Below are positions 18,446 to 24,108 of a stretch of 38,057 nt of DNA, in pieces. The stretch comes from Acidobacteriota bacterium (GTDB lineage: Bacteria > Acidobacteriota > Vicinamibacteria > Vicinamibacterales > JAKQTR01). Position 1 is the stretch's first letter; each line of letters starts with the position of its first letter. The position numbers and the translations under genes were made by a program. The stretch lies in assembly GCA_026393755.1 (NCBI GenBank), contig JAPKZO010000016.1, positions 34,757 to 72,813 of the forward strand, written 5' to 3'. Under the pieces are notes generated by a model. The model did no database searches, was not told where the DNA came from, and saw only the letters and a program-made list of their open reading frames with translations.

Positions 18446-21400
18446 TTAGTAGAAGTCGTGCGAATCGACGTCGATGGGCACGCCCGCGATGCCTTCCACG
18501 CGTTCGGCGCGCACCGACGTCACGCCTTCCTGGTTCTGGAGCCATCCCTCGATGAGCAGAAACGGCTCTTCCAGAATCGCCAGCCGATCCCGTGCGAACA
18601 GGTCTGGCCGCACAATGATGTTCGAGATGCCTGTTTCATCCTCGAGCGTGAGGAAGACGAATCCCTTCGCCGTTCCCGGCCGCTGCCGGGTGATGACCGT
18701 GCCGGCCACGCGGATGCGGCGGCCCTGGCGTTCGCGCGGCAGATCGACGGCGCGCAGGACGCCGCGCACCGCCAGTTCGCGACGCCGCAGAGCCATCGGA
18801 TGCGGGCCGATGGTCAGGCGCGTGCCGCCATAGTCGGCCACGAGGCGCTCGGTGAGGGACATGGGGAGAAGCGGGCATGGACCGTCTTCTTGCTCCGTGC
18901 TTCCTGCTTCCTGCTTCTGTTCGGGCGCGATGAATCGCGCCCCTACGTCACTCGCTCCTTGCTCAAGATCCTCCTCGTACAACTCCCCCGCCGGCCGCAC
19001 GGCCTTTTCGATCTGCCACAGCGCCTCGCGCCGGTGATAGCCGAATGCGTTGAGCGCCCCGATTTCGGCCAGCACGGCCAGTTCCTCCTTGTTCGCGCCC
19101 GTGCGCCTGACACAATCCTCGAGCGAGCGGAACCGCACCGAAGGCGGCGGGACCATCGCCCCCTCGATCGCCTCGCCCACGTGCCGGCGGAGCCCCGCGA
19201 CATACCGCAGTCCAATCCGGATGGTGCCGTCCTCTTCCACCTCGCACTCCCAGCGCGAATGCTGCACGTCCACCGGCGCAAACCGCACGCCGTGCCGCTG
19301 CGCATCTTTCACCAGCGTCGCCGGGTGGTAGAACCCCATCGGCTGATTGTTGAGCAGGGCCGCATAGAAGGCCGCCGGGAAGTGCGCCTTGAGGTACGCG
19401 CTCGCATATACGATCAGCGCGAAACTGGCCGCATGTGATTCGGGGAATCCGTACAACGCAAACGACGCGATCGATTTCACGATCCCATCGGCCGCTTCCC
19501 CCGTGATGCCCTGCCGCGCCATGCCCGCGCGAAGCTGCCCCTCGATGGCCTTCATCCGCTTCTCGGATCGCTTGAATCCCATGGCCCGCCGCAACTCTTC
19601 GGCCTGGCCGGCGGTGAACCCCGCCGCCACCATCGCGATCCGCAGCAACTGCTGCTGGAAGAGCGGCACGCCCAGCGTGCGCGCCAGGATGGGCTCGAGC
19701 GACGGATGCGGGTACACGACATCGGCCCGGCCCGCCCGCCTGTCGAGGTACGGATGCACCATCTGGCCGACGATCGGCCCGGGCCGGATGAGCGCCACCT
19801 CGACGACGAGGTCGTAGAATTTCGCCGGCTTGAGGCGCGGCAGCGTGGCCATCTGCGCGCGCGACTCCACCTGGAACACGCCCACCGTGTCGGCGCGCTG
19901 GAGCATCTCGTACACCCCCCGGTCGTCAGGCGGGATGTTCCACATCTCGAGCCGCTGGCCTGCCACGCCGTCCGCCTCCGCGCGTAGCGCTACGGCGAGA
20001 CCTCGACGAAGCTCAACGAGCGAAGTCGGGAAGCTATTGGATTCCGCCGAAGGCGAAGGCGGGACGGGCGAAGGCTGATTGATAATGCCGAACGCGTCCT
20101 GCAGCGCGGCCATCATGCCCAGCCCCAGCAGATCGATCTTGACGATCCCCATGTCGGCGCAGTCGTCCTTGTCCCACTGCACCACCACCCGCCCCGGCAT
20201 GCTTGCGTTCTCGAGCGGCACCACGTCATCGAGCCGGCCGCGCGCGATCACCATGCCTCCCGAGTGCTGGCCCAGGTGACGCGGCAGATCCTGGATGCGC
20301 CGCCACAGATCCACAAACAACGCGATCTTCGGCTGCGCGGGATCGAGGCCGGCGGCCCGCAGATCGCGCAGCAGCGCCGCGTGCTCATCCGTTTCGCTGA
20401 ACTCGAAGCGCCCGAGCAGTTTCGACAGGCGATCCAGTTGTGCCGGTTCGAACCCCAGCACCTTCCCCACTTCGCGCGTGGCGCTGCGATCGCGATACGT
20501 GATGACGTTGGCCGTCATGGCCGCGCCATGACGGCCGTACTTCTCGTAGACATGCTGGATGACGCGCTCGCGCCGATCGCCGCTTGGCAGATCCAGATCG
20601 ATATCCGGCCACTCGCCGCGCTCCTCCGACAGGAAGCGCTCGAACAGCAGGTCCATCCCCACCGGGTCCACCGCCGTAATGCCCAGGCTGTAGCAGACGG
20701 CGCTGTTGGCCGCCGAGCCGCGTCCCTGCACGAGAATCTGCTGCTCGCGACAGAAGTTGACGATGTCCCAGACGATCAGGAAGTAGCCGGCGAGATCGAG
20801 TTTCTCGATCAGATCGAGCTCGCGGTTGACTTGCGCGCGGGCCTTGTCGTCGAACGGCCGATAGCGCTCGCGAGCGCCCACCAGCGTGATGGCGCGCAGA
20901 AACGAACTGGCCGTCTCGCCCGCCGGCACCGGAAAATCAGGAAAATGATAACCAAGATCGGCCATCGAATACTGGAGGCGATCGGCCAGGGCGCACGTGG
21001 CGGCCAGTGCCGCGGGAGCGTCACCGAACAGCGCCGCCATCTCGGCCGGCGGCTTGAGATACCGCTCGGCATTCCGTGCCAGCTTCCGCCCCGCCTGTTC
21101 GATCGTCGTTTTGTGACGGATGCAGGTGAGCACGTCATAGAGCGGGCGCTCGACCGGATCGGCAAAGCGCACGCCGTTCGACACGATGAGCGGCACGTGA
21201 AACGCCGAGGCCAGCCCGCGCAACATCTGGTTGGCGGTCTCTTCGTCGCGCAGAAAATGACGCTGGAGCTCGACGGCCACGTTCGCACGCCCGAACAGGC
21301 CCGTGATCCGATCGACCAGACCGCCCACGCCATGACGACCGGCCGCCAGCGCCTCGCGGCCCACGATCGCCACCAGGCCGCCGGTGTGGCCGTCGAGGTC

Positions 21401-21835
21401 GTCGAGCGTGAGCGCGCCTTCGCCTTTTGGCGATCGGAGCTTCATCCGGGTGATCAGACGGCACAGGTGCTGATATCCCTCGCGGGTTTCGACCAGGACA
21501 GGCAGGCACCACCCGCCTTCGCCCGACTCCGCTCTTCGAGCGTCGTCGGGCTTCGGCGGGGCAAGCGGGGTTAGGGACCGGGGATTCGGAGGTCGGACGG
21601 CCTCCGCCTGCGGCTTCCGCGTGGCGGCGGTCATCGTCGACTCGCAGCCGATGATGGGCTTGATGCCGGCGGCACGGGCGGCTTTGTGGAAGCGCGGCGC
21701 ACCGTACACGCCATCGCGATCGATGAGCGCGAGCGCGGAATATCCCAGCGCCGCCGCCCGCTCGACGAGCGTCTCCGGCAGCGAGGCGGCTTCGAGAAAG
21801 CTGAAGGCGGAGGACGCGTGGAGTTCGGTGTACAT
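18446..21835 (-). CDS. dnaE2: Error-prone DNA polymerase DnaE2 (ImuC)
   Basis: 1129-residue C-family polymerase of the ImuABC mutasome, which performs translesion synthesis after DNA damage. The PHP domain starts at MYTELHASSAFSFLEAAS; the polymerase core has the catalytic aspartates D411 and D413 (PDIDLDL) and D568 (KIDLLGLG). Characteristic stretches are HLGQHSGGMVIARG, WNIPPDDRGVYEML and FALYGFPESHAASFALIVYAS. An OB fold lies at about 1040-1080, and the end is SHDFY. Start ATG overlaps the imuB stop (TGATG). Three segments are foreign to the family: about 80-108, 586-628 and 958-988. Each coincides with palindromic DNA and keeps the frame open. The polymerase residues are intact, so the protein could be functional. 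Confidence 0.93.
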   Translation of the reverse strand: MYTELHASSAFSFLEAASLPETLVERAAALGYSALALIDRDGVYGAPRFHKAARAAGIKPIIGCESTMTAATRKPQAEAVRPPNPRSLTPLAPPKPDDARRAESGEGGWCLPVLVETREGYQHLCRLITRMKLRSPKGEGALTLDDLDGHTGGLVAIVGREALAAGRHGVGGLVDRITGLFGRANVAVELQRHFLRDEETANQMLRGLASAFHVPLIVSNGVRFADPVERPLYDVLTCIRHKTTIEQAGRKLARNAERYLKPPAEMAALFGDAPAALAATCALADRLQYSMADLGYHFPDFPVPAGETASSFLRAITLVGARERYRPFDDKARAQVNRELDLIEKLDLAGYFLIVWDIVNFCREQQILVQGRGSAANSAVCYSLGITAVDPVGMDLLFERFLSEERGEWPDIDLDLPSGDRRERVIQHVYEKYGRHGAAMTANVITYRDRSATREVGKVLGFEPAQLDRLSKLLGRFEFSETDEHAALLRDLRAAGLDPAQPKIALFVDLWRRIQDLPRHLGQHSGGMVIARGRLDDVVPLENASMPGRVVVQWDKDDCADMGIVKIDLLGLGMMAALQDAFGIINQPSPVPPSPSAESNSFPTSLVELRRGLAVALRAEADGVAGQRLEMWNIPPDDRGVYEMLQRADTVGVFQVESRAQMATLPRLKPAKFYDLVVEVALIRPGPIVGQMVHPYLDRRAGRADVVYPHPSLEPILARTLGVPLFQQQLLRIAMVAAGFTAGQAEELRRAMGFKRSEKRMKAIEGQLRAGMARQGITGEAADGIVKSIASFALYGFPESHAASFALIVYASAYLKAHFPAAFYAALLNNQPMGFYHPATLVKDAQRHGVRFAPVDVQHSRWECEVEEDGTIRIGLRYVAGLRRHVGEAIEGAMVPPPSVRFRSLEDCVRRTGANKEELAVLAEIGALNAFGYHRREALWQIEKAVRPAGELYEEDLEQGASDVGARFIAPEQKQEAGSTEQEDGPCPLLPMSLTERLVADYGGTRLTIGPHPMALRRRELAVRGVLRAVDLPRERQGRRIRVAGTVITRQRPGTAKGFVFLTLEDETGISNIIVRPDLFARDRLAILEEPFLLIEGWLQNQEGVTSVRAERVEGIAGVPIDVDSHDFY
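18923..18942. repeat. Palindromic insert in dnaE2, third site
   Basis: A nine-base perfect stem (GGGCGCGAT with ATCGCGCCC, two-base loop) followed by CCTAC on the plus strand. Its GTAGGGGC-type end matches the edge of the 28-bp palindrome in imuB. It encodes part of the foreign segment at DnaE2 residues 958-988, between LYEEDLEQG and the family motif MSLTERLVADYGG. A run of CTTCCTGCTTCCTGCTTC-like short direct repeats lies beside it (18899-18918). Confidence 0.7.
19954..20080. repeat. Composite palindromic insert in dnaE2, second site
   Basis: About 127 bases encoding DnaE2 residues 586-628, which do not belong to the family pattern. It contains the 12-base perfect palindrome CGTAGCGCTACG (19983-19994), an imperfect hairpin CGACGAAGCTC / GAGCGAAGTCG (20004-20028) and CCGCC...GGCGG (20044-20062). 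The middle hairpin resembles the core of the 59-bp element at 21512 and 22877. The reading frame stays open through all of it. Confidence 0.65.
21512..21570. repeat. 59-bp palindromic element, copy A (in dnaE2)
   Basis: Differs from copy B at 22877-22935 at about six of 59 positions. The element is itself an imperfect palindrome: a CCCGCC..CGCCCGAC arm, GCTC-ttc-GAGC at the centre and a complementary GTCGGGC..GGCGGG arm. Here it encodes DnaE2 residues 89-108 (PLAPPKPDDARRAESGEGGW region), inside the PHP domain between GIKPIIGCES and PVLVETREGYQHL. Confidence 0.85.
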
Positions 21836-23349
21836 CAATCCACCACCGCCTCTACAAACCACCGTCCGCTGTCGCGGTCTTCGAAGATGCGGTAGAGGCC
21901 GCCGTCGCCGAGCGCCACGTCCCACTCATCACGGTTCCAGCCGGCCAGCCCGCGCAGCGCCTCCACACCTGAGGCGCCCTGCGTCTTCGTCGTCTTCCAC
22001 CACTCGCCCGACGTGCGCCAGGGTCCGGCGCAGGCGTGCACGCGGCCGCCAGACAATCCCGGCCGATCGGTGTTGACCACGATGGGGCGGTTGTGATCAA
22101 TCAGCACGCGCGCCGGAATGGGAAAGCGAAAGCGACGGAGGCAGGCGGTCGGGGGGCGTGGTGATCCCAGAGAACGCCGTAGGGGCACGGCATGCCGTGC
22201 CCCTACTTGCGGCGCGACGAGCGGGGTTCGAGTTTCAGGCACGCGGAACGGCACCATCGCAAACGCGCCGGGCCGATGGGAATCGACCAGCGCTGGCGAT
22301 CCGCATCGCGTGTCGCCCATCAGTGCGCCAAGACGCGCCAGCAGCGTCGATACCTGTTCGGGCGCCGGCAGCGCCCGCGTGAGCAGCGACTCCTGCACGA
22401 TGCGGCCGGGGGTCGGGTCGATGACCACCGTCACGCGGTCGACGCCGGCCGGTGGCTGGTGCGATTCGAGATCCAGCAGCAGCAGCGTGCGCAGCACCTT
22501 CGCGTCACGCATGGCGCCGGGCAACTGCAGGGTGCGGGTGTGCGTGTCTTTGGTGACGAGCCGCAGATGGAGGTGCAGCACGGCCGCTCCGCGATCGCGC
22601 CGTTCGAGCCGCTGGCAGAGCGGATCGAGCACGCCGCCAAGCACGAACGACAGCGGCTCGAGTCCCTCGATGGGCCATTCCAGTTCGGTCGTCGCGTCAA
22701 ACGACTCGTCTTCCCGCGTGGGCACCAGCGGGCCGATGTCTTCGCCGCGCGCCAGCGCGCGCCACCTCAGCCCTTCCTGCCCGATGCGCCCGGACAGTTC
22801 GATGGCGGGCAGCGCGGCGAGTTGACCAAGCGTGCGAACGCCCCAGCGGGACAGGACGGACAGGATGGAGGGATTCCCCGCCTTCGCCAGACTTCGCTCT
22901 TCGAGCGTCGCCGGGCTTCGGCGTGGCGAGCGGGATGCGGGGATTGGAAGAAACACCTCGAGCATGCGGAGCGGCAACGGCGCCAGGACCGCGGCTTCTT
23001 CGCCCGCCGGCACCACGGTCACACCAGCGCGGGCCGCGGCACACAGAATGGCCGTCGTGCGCGTCGCCGCAACACCCACGTGCACCGGGCCAAGCCCAGC
23101 GTCGGCCGCCGCGCGGCACAGTTGATCGGCAACCGCCTTGTCGTCACCGAACAATCGTGTGAGTCCATTCACCTCCAGCGTGATCACCGTCTCGGAGCGC
23201 GCGTCCACGCGCGGCGAAAACAGACGTGCCACATCCAGCAAGCGCGTTCCGGAAATGGGGTCTGACCCCGTTCTCTCTGCGTCGAGCGAACAATGAGGCC
23301 TGACCCTATTGCCGCAAGGTTGGTCCGGCTTGTAGAGACACGCAAACAT
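21835..23349 (-). CDS. imuB: ImuB, Y-family polymerase-like protein of the mutasome
   Basis: 504-residue non-catalytic Y-family-like protein that links DnaE2 to the beta clamp in the ImuABC mutasome. Recognisable parts are LLDVARLFSPRVDA..ITLEVNGLTRLFGDD (about 37-70), VGVAATRTTAILCAAARAG (91-109), WGVRTLGQLAALP helix-hairpin-helix (169-181) and the C-terminal part GDGGLYRIFEDRDSGRWF. The first 70-75 residues of a standard ImuB palm are absent: after MFACLYKPDQ a repeat-encoded stretch (residues 12-34) leads straight to LLDVA. Further foreign segments lie at about 136-160 and 373-405, each over a palindromic repeat. Starts 12 bases after imuA; no strong ribosome-binding site. Confidence 0.85.
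   Translation of the reverse strand: MFACLYKPDQPCGNRVRPHCSLDAERTGSDPISGTRLLDVARLFSPRVDARSETVITLEVNGLTRLFGDDKAVADQLCRAAADAGLGPVHVGVAATRTTAILCAAARAGVTVVPAGEEAAVLAPLPLRMLEVFLPIPASRSPRRSPATLEERSLAKAGNPSILSVLSRWGVRTLGQLAALPAIELSGRIGQEGLRWRALARGEDIGPLVPTREDESFDATTELEWPIEGLEPLSFVLGGVLDPLCQRLERRDRGAAVLHLHLRLVTKDTHTRTLQLPGAMRDAKVLRTLLLLDLESHQPPAGVDRVTVVIDPTPGRIVQESLLTRALPAPEQVSTLLARLGALMGDTRCGSPALVDSHRPGAFAMVPFRVPETRTPLVAPQVGARHAVPLRRSLGSPRPPTACLRRFRFPIPARVLIDHNRPIVVNTDRPGLSGGRVHACAGPWRTSGEWWKTTKTQGASGVEALRGLAGWNRDEWDVALGDGGLYRIFEDRDSGRWFVEAVVD
22179..22206. repeat. 28-bp perfect palindrome in imuB
   Basis: Left arm GTAGGGGCACGGCA and right arm TGCCGTGCCCCTAC are exact reverse complements without a loop. 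It encodes ImuB residues 382-391 (about VGARHAVPL) within a foreign segment that separates PFRVPETRTP from FRFPIPARVLIDHNRP. The GTAGGGGC edge is shared with the insert at 18923-18950 in dnaE2, which suggests one repeat family. Confidence 0.85.
22877..22935. repeat. 59-bp palindromic element, copy B (in imuB)
   Basis: Same element as copy A at 21512-21570 and in the same DNA orientation. In imuB it is read in another frame, giving about residues 139-158 (SRSPRRSPATLEERSLAKAG) instead of the PPKPDDARRAESGEGG-type peptide of DnaE2. Reading copy B in the DnaE2 frame returns PLATPKPGDARRAKSGEGG, which shows that the likeness is in DNA and not in protein. Confidence 0.85.
23253..23310. repeat. Tandem GGGGTC-type palindromes at the 5' end of imuB
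   Basis: Two direct copies of a roughly 19-base imperfect palindrome, AATGGGGTCTGACCCCGTT (23254-23272) and AATGAGGCCTGACCCTATT (23292-23310), 38 bases apart. They encode ImuB residues 14-33. GGGGTC..GACCCC palindromes of this kind are, to my recollection, common repeats near REP-associated (RayT-type) transposases in Acidobacteriota and deltaproteobacteria. No transposase is in this window. Confidence 0.75.
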
Positions 23350-23361
23350 GGGTGGTTCTTC

Positions 23362-24108
23362 TCAGGCGCTGGCCCGCAGGCGCACCGGCAAGGCGTCTGC
23401 GCCCGGAACCAGTCGCGCGCGTGCGGTCCGCACGTCGCTGTCGAGCCCGCGCAACACGCGCCCAAAGTCCCGAGGGTGCAGCGAGATACTCACCCCGCCC
23501 GCGCTCCGGCTCATCGGCGCACTGCCGACAATCACTCCCACGGTTTCCTGCCCTTCCAGCACGCGTTGGAATCGCAGCCACGTCGTCATGGGCACACGCC
23601 GCAGCGCTTGAGGAGGCGCATCGGCCAGATCCAGGGCCATCACGCCAAATACGCCTGATTGCAGGATCAGATTGGTGGCCTTCAACGCCCGCGTGATGGT
23701 GCGATCCGCTCCGGCTTGGCGGTTGGCCATGTGCGGAAAGGCCGGCGCCGACGGATCACCGCGCACCCAGAGCATTCGCTGCAAATCGACCCCGGCGGCC
23801 GCCGCCGACTCCGAATCGAACAAATCAAAGGCATCGACAAGCGCGACCATCTCGCCTCTGGATGTCGCCGCCGCTAGAATCGTCATCAGCAGGCTGGTGC
23901 GGCCCGAGGAACGCGATCCGACAATTTCGGACATCTGCCCCAACGGGAGGCCGCCTCCAAGTTGTTGATCCAGCTCGAATAAACCTGTTTTCGCCGTCTC
24001 CTGTAATCCGGCAGATGGCGTTCCGGCGCTGCCCATCGGCACCAGCGTCCGATCAAGTTTCTTGTTCCGCAGCAACGTTTCCACATCAGCACGGCAGGCA
24101 GCAGGCAT
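23362..24108 (-). CDS. imuA: ImuA, RecA-like mutasome protein
   Basis: 248-residue RecA-fold protein, first gene of the imuA-imuB-dnaE2 operon. The family's TGLFELDQQLGGGLPLGQMSEIVG leads to a Walker A-like GSRSSGRTS near residues 64-72. VALVDAFDLFD and VFGVMALDLAD correspond to the hydrophobic beta strands with acidic ends. ImuA is thought to control or recruit the other two proteins rather than to recombine DNA. The start at 24108 is well supported by GGAGGTCACA directly upstream. imuB follows after 12 bases. The operon is SOS-induced in other bacteria; I could not find a convincing LexA site upstream. Confidence 0.87.
   Translation of the reverse strand: MPAACRADVETLLRNKKLDRTLVPMGSAGTPSAGLQETAKTGLFELDQQLGGGLPLGQMSEIVGSRSSGRTSLLMTILAAATSRGEMVALVDAFDLFDSESAAAAGVDLQRMLWVRGDPSAPAFPHMANRQAGADRTITRALKATNLILQSGVFGVMALDLADAPPQALRRVPMTTWLRFQRVLEGQETVGVIVGSAPMSRSAGGVSISLHPRDFGRVLRGLDSDVRTARARLVPGADALPVRLRASA

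Follow-up and report, generated by a model that had tools for sequence, protein, structure and literature searches.

REPINs and MITEs are non-autonomous dispersed palindromes. The repeat family described here, from the genome of an Acidobacteriota bacterium (G000), likewise consists of dispersed palindromes, but no partner Y1 transposase was found for it in that genome. The classic case of palindromes carried in frame is that of the Rickettsia palindromic elements, which are compatible with the function of the host protein (PMC10969869). The present family is similar in that some of its palindromic repeats lie in frame in protein genes. By their description, the Rickettsia elements are set apart by a length of ~150 bp and a conserved peptide, whereas this family is found in several frames and in both orientations. 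By codon usage 12 copies were classed as in frame within genes, with an empty site for one of them, and these copies do not encode a conserved peptide. The parallel with the Rickettsia elements, drawn in an initial annotation of this DNA, holds for in-frame insertion, but the REPs published for DnaE2 and further repair genes are the closer parallel (PMC3733652).

REPs located inside genes, many of them replication and repair genes with DnaE2 among those named, were described by Di Nocera et al. in 2013, whose suggestions included both flexible linkers and a mutator role (PMC3733652). The GTAG and CGTC REPs listed in their survey come from other phyla; among the passages located by a term search for Acidobacteria, the only mention concerns TIR-associated transposases (PMC3733652). 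The GTAG and CGTC REPs and the present family are all small hairpin repeats that are mostly extragenic, with some copies in frame within genes (PMC3733652). As is typical of REPs, the family is a short palindrome capable of forming a hairpin, with many dispersed copies that lie mostly between genes. It differs from the GTAG and CGTC REPs in its variable inner stem, in the lack of exact copies beside the sampled Y1 transposases, and in having a pair in imuB and dnaE2 that turns over from one species to the next. GTAG occurs in only 23 of 53 copies, within the stem and not at the hairpin end. Neither an end GTAG tag nor, in G000 and at the 24 sampled transposase loci of relatives, a repeat-flanked RAYT (Y1) transposase was found, the two features that characterise the GTAG REP superfamily.

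The presence of REPs inside DnaE2 and repair genes has been known since 2013 (PMC3733652). The new detail consists of another lineage, a variable-stem hairpin, the use of four frames, paired linkers in adjacent genes and turnover between sister species. Literature searches returned no report for ImuB or for this lineage, which is not proof of absence.

The imuA-imuB-dnaE2 operon

The window, that is, the whole stretch of DNA that was analysed (38,057 nucleotides of contig JAPKZO010000016.1), contains an operon with the following genes, whose boundaries were taken from open frames and codon usage:

18446-21835, minus strand: dnaE2, encoding the error-prone alpha subunit of DNA polymerase III (1129 aa, counted from MYTELH)
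21835-23349, minus strand: imuB, encoding the inactive mutasome polymerase of the Y family (504 aa; weak Pfam IMS_C match)
23362-24108, minus strand: imuA-like gene with a RecA-family domain, the upstream partner in the operon

The dnaE2 open reading frame opens at 21925, and the conserved start MYTELHASS lies at 21835. Comparison of G000 with its sister species (G001) gave dN/dS values of 0.10 for dnaE2 and 0.21 for imuB. Because this indicates purifying selection, the two genes are not decaying.

The 59-bp palindromic pair

Each of these two genes carries one copy of a palindromic repeat:

21512-21570, minus strand: dnaE2 copy of the palindromic repeat (residues ~89-108 of DnaE2, PHP-domain region)
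22877-22935, minus strand: imuB copy of the palindromic repeat (residues ~139-158 of ImuB, linker before RWGxRTLG)

The copies match at 53 of 59 bases and at 88% over 65 bp, in the same DNA orientation and both within minus-strand genes, in agreement with the near-identity (about six differences) noted in the initial annotation. The dnaE2 copy reads CCCGCTTGCCCCGCCGAAGC...GCGAAGGCGGG in minus-strand orientation. When this copy (63-bp query) was compared with the 4.43-Mb genome by BLAST, the imuB copy was recovered at E=2.3e-17, and the other matches were more distant. A hairpin is predicted for both copies, with folding-energy z values of -3.2 (dnaE2) and -2.4 (imuB) relative to shuffles. Rfam gave no match above the gathering score in the window.

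The two copies are read in different frames, as had been proposed. The offset from the start of the open frame is (21925-21570) mod 3 = 1 in dnaE2 and (23349-22935) mod 3 = 0 in imuB, and the repeat accordingly gives the peptide LTPLAPPKPDDARRAESGEGG in DnaE2 but ASRSPRRSPATLEERSLAKAG in ImuB. Neither 59-mer contains a stop in any of the six frames, a property shared by ~12% of random 59-mers from the window. The element-coded residues 137-159 of ImuB have low confidence in the AlphaFold model, are flanked by two confident segments and are predicted to be disordered; the mean of this model is moderate (61), and it is usable locally. The DnaE2 model was unusable (mean pLDDT 33, five sequences). 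The element-coded peptide is probably without a dedicated function.

The dispersed hairpin family

The family consists of a left arm CGCCGWAGC, a variable middle stem and a right arm GCGAAGGCGG. The subgroup containing the 59-bp pair carries CTTGCC-type bases before the left arm. The exact family pattern has 53 copies in G000 versus 0 for a reversed control, and it is present in 48 of the 60 searched genomes of the order, with a maximum of 181 copies in one genome. The inner stem has a mean length of 2.70 bp over the 53 copies compared with 0.39 after shuffling (shuffle maximum 0.58), and 21 different triplets start it across the copies. Inner-stem complementarity is therefore kept despite sequence change, and the hairpin is what is kept. 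GAATCCC-like heptamers are present on both sides of one subgroup and may represent a target or an array.

The genome-wide count placed 41 of the 53 copies between or beside genes and 12 in frame within genes, a classification based on codon usage with a small training set. The intragenic copies use four of the six frames (S0, S1, S2 and O0), and the family is open in nearly all six; the earlier suggestion that the element tolerates at least two frames without stops agrees with this. The ten other host genes include those encoding molybdopterin dehydrogenase, sortilin/BNR proteins, M14 peptidase and O-antigen ligase. One or two of the intragenic assignments, such as that in a NuoL-like gene, may be chance matches.

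Sequence comparisons support the interpretation of the 59-bp sequence as a dispersed DNA repeat and not a protein domain, because its copies are numerous, mostly intergenic and read in several frames, and its peptide is absent from orthologues. The initial annotation had named two observations that would speak against a mobile element, namely the same peptides in orthologues and a lack of other genomic copies. The orthologue alignments of ImuB and DnaE2 do not contain the peptides, and other copies are plentiful in G000. The claim of a mobile element stands as far as a dispersed repeat is concerned, with transposition itself a putative step. The copies have only their ends and stem in common, a core that may occur in several palindromes and does not prove a single mobile unit. 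Another candidate was a conserved protein motif common to ImuB and DnaE2, such as a clamp-binding peptide, since the same two partner proteins carry the sequence. This candidate was rejected, with practically no probability left to it: the frames and peptides differ, orthologues lack the sequence and the DNA copies are mostly intergenic.

Overall, the 59-bp sequence quite probably belongs to a family of REP-like (MITE-like) hairpins of Vicinamibacterales-type Acidobacteriota, copies of which would spread and survive in disordered linkers.

Hypervariable linkers of ImuB and DnaE2

Alignment of ~30 ImuB and 18 DnaE2 orthologues revealed conserved domains and linkers that differ in almost every genome. 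In open-frame length, DnaE2 is much more variable (MAD 54 aa) than DnaE1 from the same set of genomes (MAD 14 aa; Levene P=0.0003). The linkers in the window contain four repeats, comprising the 59-bp pair and two others that were absent from the initial annotation:

22179-22206: perfect palindrome GTAGGGGCACGGCATGCCGTGCCCCTAC in imuB (second variable linker, aa 382-391)
19970-20030, plus strand: third dispersed repeat in dnaE2, in the linker that joins the NTPase domain (PF07733) to the finger domain (PF17657)

The 22-bp core of the imuB palindrome has 70 genomic copies at <=2 mismatches. The dnaE2 repeat has similar genomic copies at 84-90%, and its inner palindrome is related to the 59-bp pair.

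Both linkers of the sister species carry a different repeat of 191 bp, which is 96% identical between dnaE2 and imuB and belongs to a family found at ~40 places in that genome. Repeats common to the imuB and dnaE2 linkers have also been detected in G025 and G005, and 4 of the 13 places of another palindrome in G039 are in imuB-dnaE2. The expected number of repeats in imuB-dnaE2 was 0.02-0.07 in three genomes, and 2, 2 and 4 were found (P 0.002, 0.002 and 1e-9, respectively), although these tests were chosen after seeing the data and the copies are non-independent if local copying occurred. In ImuB and DnaE2 it is the linkers that are hypervariable, holding dispersed repeats that differ between species, whereas purifying selection acts on the domains.

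The REPs published for DnaE2 and further repair genes, together with the post hoc clustering in three genomes, are consistent with the mutator hypothesis of Di Nocera and colleagues, according to which REP insertions in dnaE2 and imuB were selected for changing mutasome activity. However, the other intragenic copies in G000 are in unrelated genes, the replaced linkers differ in every species and the element-coded part of ImuB is predicted to be disordered, and selection of this kind is very improbable. The same low probability applies to a model in which the disordered ImuB and DnaE2 linkers recurrently receive and exchange genome-specific repeats, stay alike within each genome through recombination between both genes, and tune mutasome spacing or activity and the induced mutation rate through their turnover.

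Other repeats were observed at these genes. A third, inverted part-copy (95%) of the dnaE2/imuB repeat of the sister species lies just upstream of its imuB gene (L091 6811-6870). Heptamer-type minisatellites (e.g., CCCAATC, CTCCCTG and CACTGCC) are translated in the ImuB and DnaE2 linkers of relatives (L085, L081, L094-L096 and L106).

An empty site in a dehydrogenase gene

No empty site was found for dnaE2 or imuB, as every relative compared has linker sequence of its own. Orthologue alignment, which was expected to confirm precise insertions, did not yield their boundaries in these two genes, because the linkers are hypervariable everywhere; a clean empty site was identified in another gene. 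An Ald_Xan_dh/MoCoBD gene of G000 (xanthine-dehydrogenase-like, molybdopterin dehydrogenase) contains a family element followed by a GTAGGGGCACGG palindrome in one loop. This loop, located between ...LEPESA(I/V)AVP and (L/V)EVFSQGQG, is composed of only 2-3 residues in four relatives (G004, G009, G016 and G006), and other repeats occupy it in G002 and G003. Different repeats have therefore entered one tolerant loop on several occasions.

Origin of the pair and candidate mobilisers

Within G000, the dnaE2 and imuB copies each have the other as their best match (83 bits versus 52.7 for the next match), and the same is true of those of the sister species (310 versus 163). The divergence within the pair is 0.11 in G000 and 0.04 in G001, compared with a dS of ~0.26-0.30 between the two species. 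Since the copies are mutual best matches and their divergence is below this silent divergence, local copying between the linkers appears likelier than two independent arrivals. At its left end the imuB element has 22 bp that do not differ between the two species. Because this end is common to both, an element was possibly already present in imuB before the split, and part of the current one may be older than that event.

Alternatively, both copies would have been transposed independently by a RAYT/IS200-like single-strand transposase, an enzyme that prefers hairpins or exposed single-stranded DNA, with the mobiliser lost from this genome or acting from elsewhere. For GTAG REPs, mobilisation by RAYT is the prevailing hypothesis (PMC3733652), and the hairpin form with its covarying inner stem agrees with such an origin. 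Y1 transposases are present in 40 of 60 relatives, and their presence correlates with element counts (rho 0.53, uncorrected for phylogeny and genome size). On the other hand, no Y1_Tnp (Y1/RAYT transposase) was detected in G000, seven genomes without a Y1 transposase still have >10 element copies and none of 24 sampled transposase loci of relatives had an exact copy nearby. Independent insertion also leaves the mutual best match of neighbours in two species unexplained, and this origin is considered unlikely. That mutual match, the 191-bp pair of the sister species and the other paired linkers (G025, G039 and G005) would be expected if the sequence had simply been duplicated locally from one linker to the other, without any mobile element. 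Such a duplication is nevertheless rather improbable, as members of the same families are found at tens of further places and a gene unrelated to the mutasome has insertions where relatives have empty sites.

According to the preferred interpretation of a dispersed REP-like repeat, the elements would have spread through the genome, and copies that arrive in disordered linkers and whose net length keeps the frame would survive because the protein tolerates them. The near-identical pair would have been produced by copying between linkers 1.3 kb apart, through either ectopic gene conversion or local re-insertion, and this copying would be more recent than the split from the sister species. No transposition or excision events were observed in the compared genomes.

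These results extend protein-coding palindromes to Vicinamibacterales-type Acidobacteriota and provide a testable case for the 2013 suggestion of non-random REP hits in repair genes. They also point to concrete sources (REPs and heptamer arrays) of fast linker evolution in otherwise conserved proteins. Strain collections would allow a test of the joint turnover in these two genes of a single operon.

Other palindromic repeats in the genomes

Long palindromic repeats (CCAGCCTTCGCT...GCTWCGGCTNGGCAAGCC) are located directly or shortly downstream of tRNA-Glu and tRNA-Arg genes (L047, ~1463-1560, and L058, ~1470-1520) and might resemble attachment-site-like elements. There is also a longer subfamily (CGCCGWAGCAAYGCGAGGA...GCRTTGCGAAGGCGG), with three copies in a 660-bp stretch (G000:C5:92085-92744, L146-L148) and others at C15:2251 and C40:59930 of the same genome. 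At L023 1501-1569 (G000:C28:422491-422559), the loop of one palindromic element apparently contains a second such element (CGCTTGTCCCGCCGTAGC-CCGCTTGCCTCGCCGCAGC...GGGCAGGGCGAAGGCGG).
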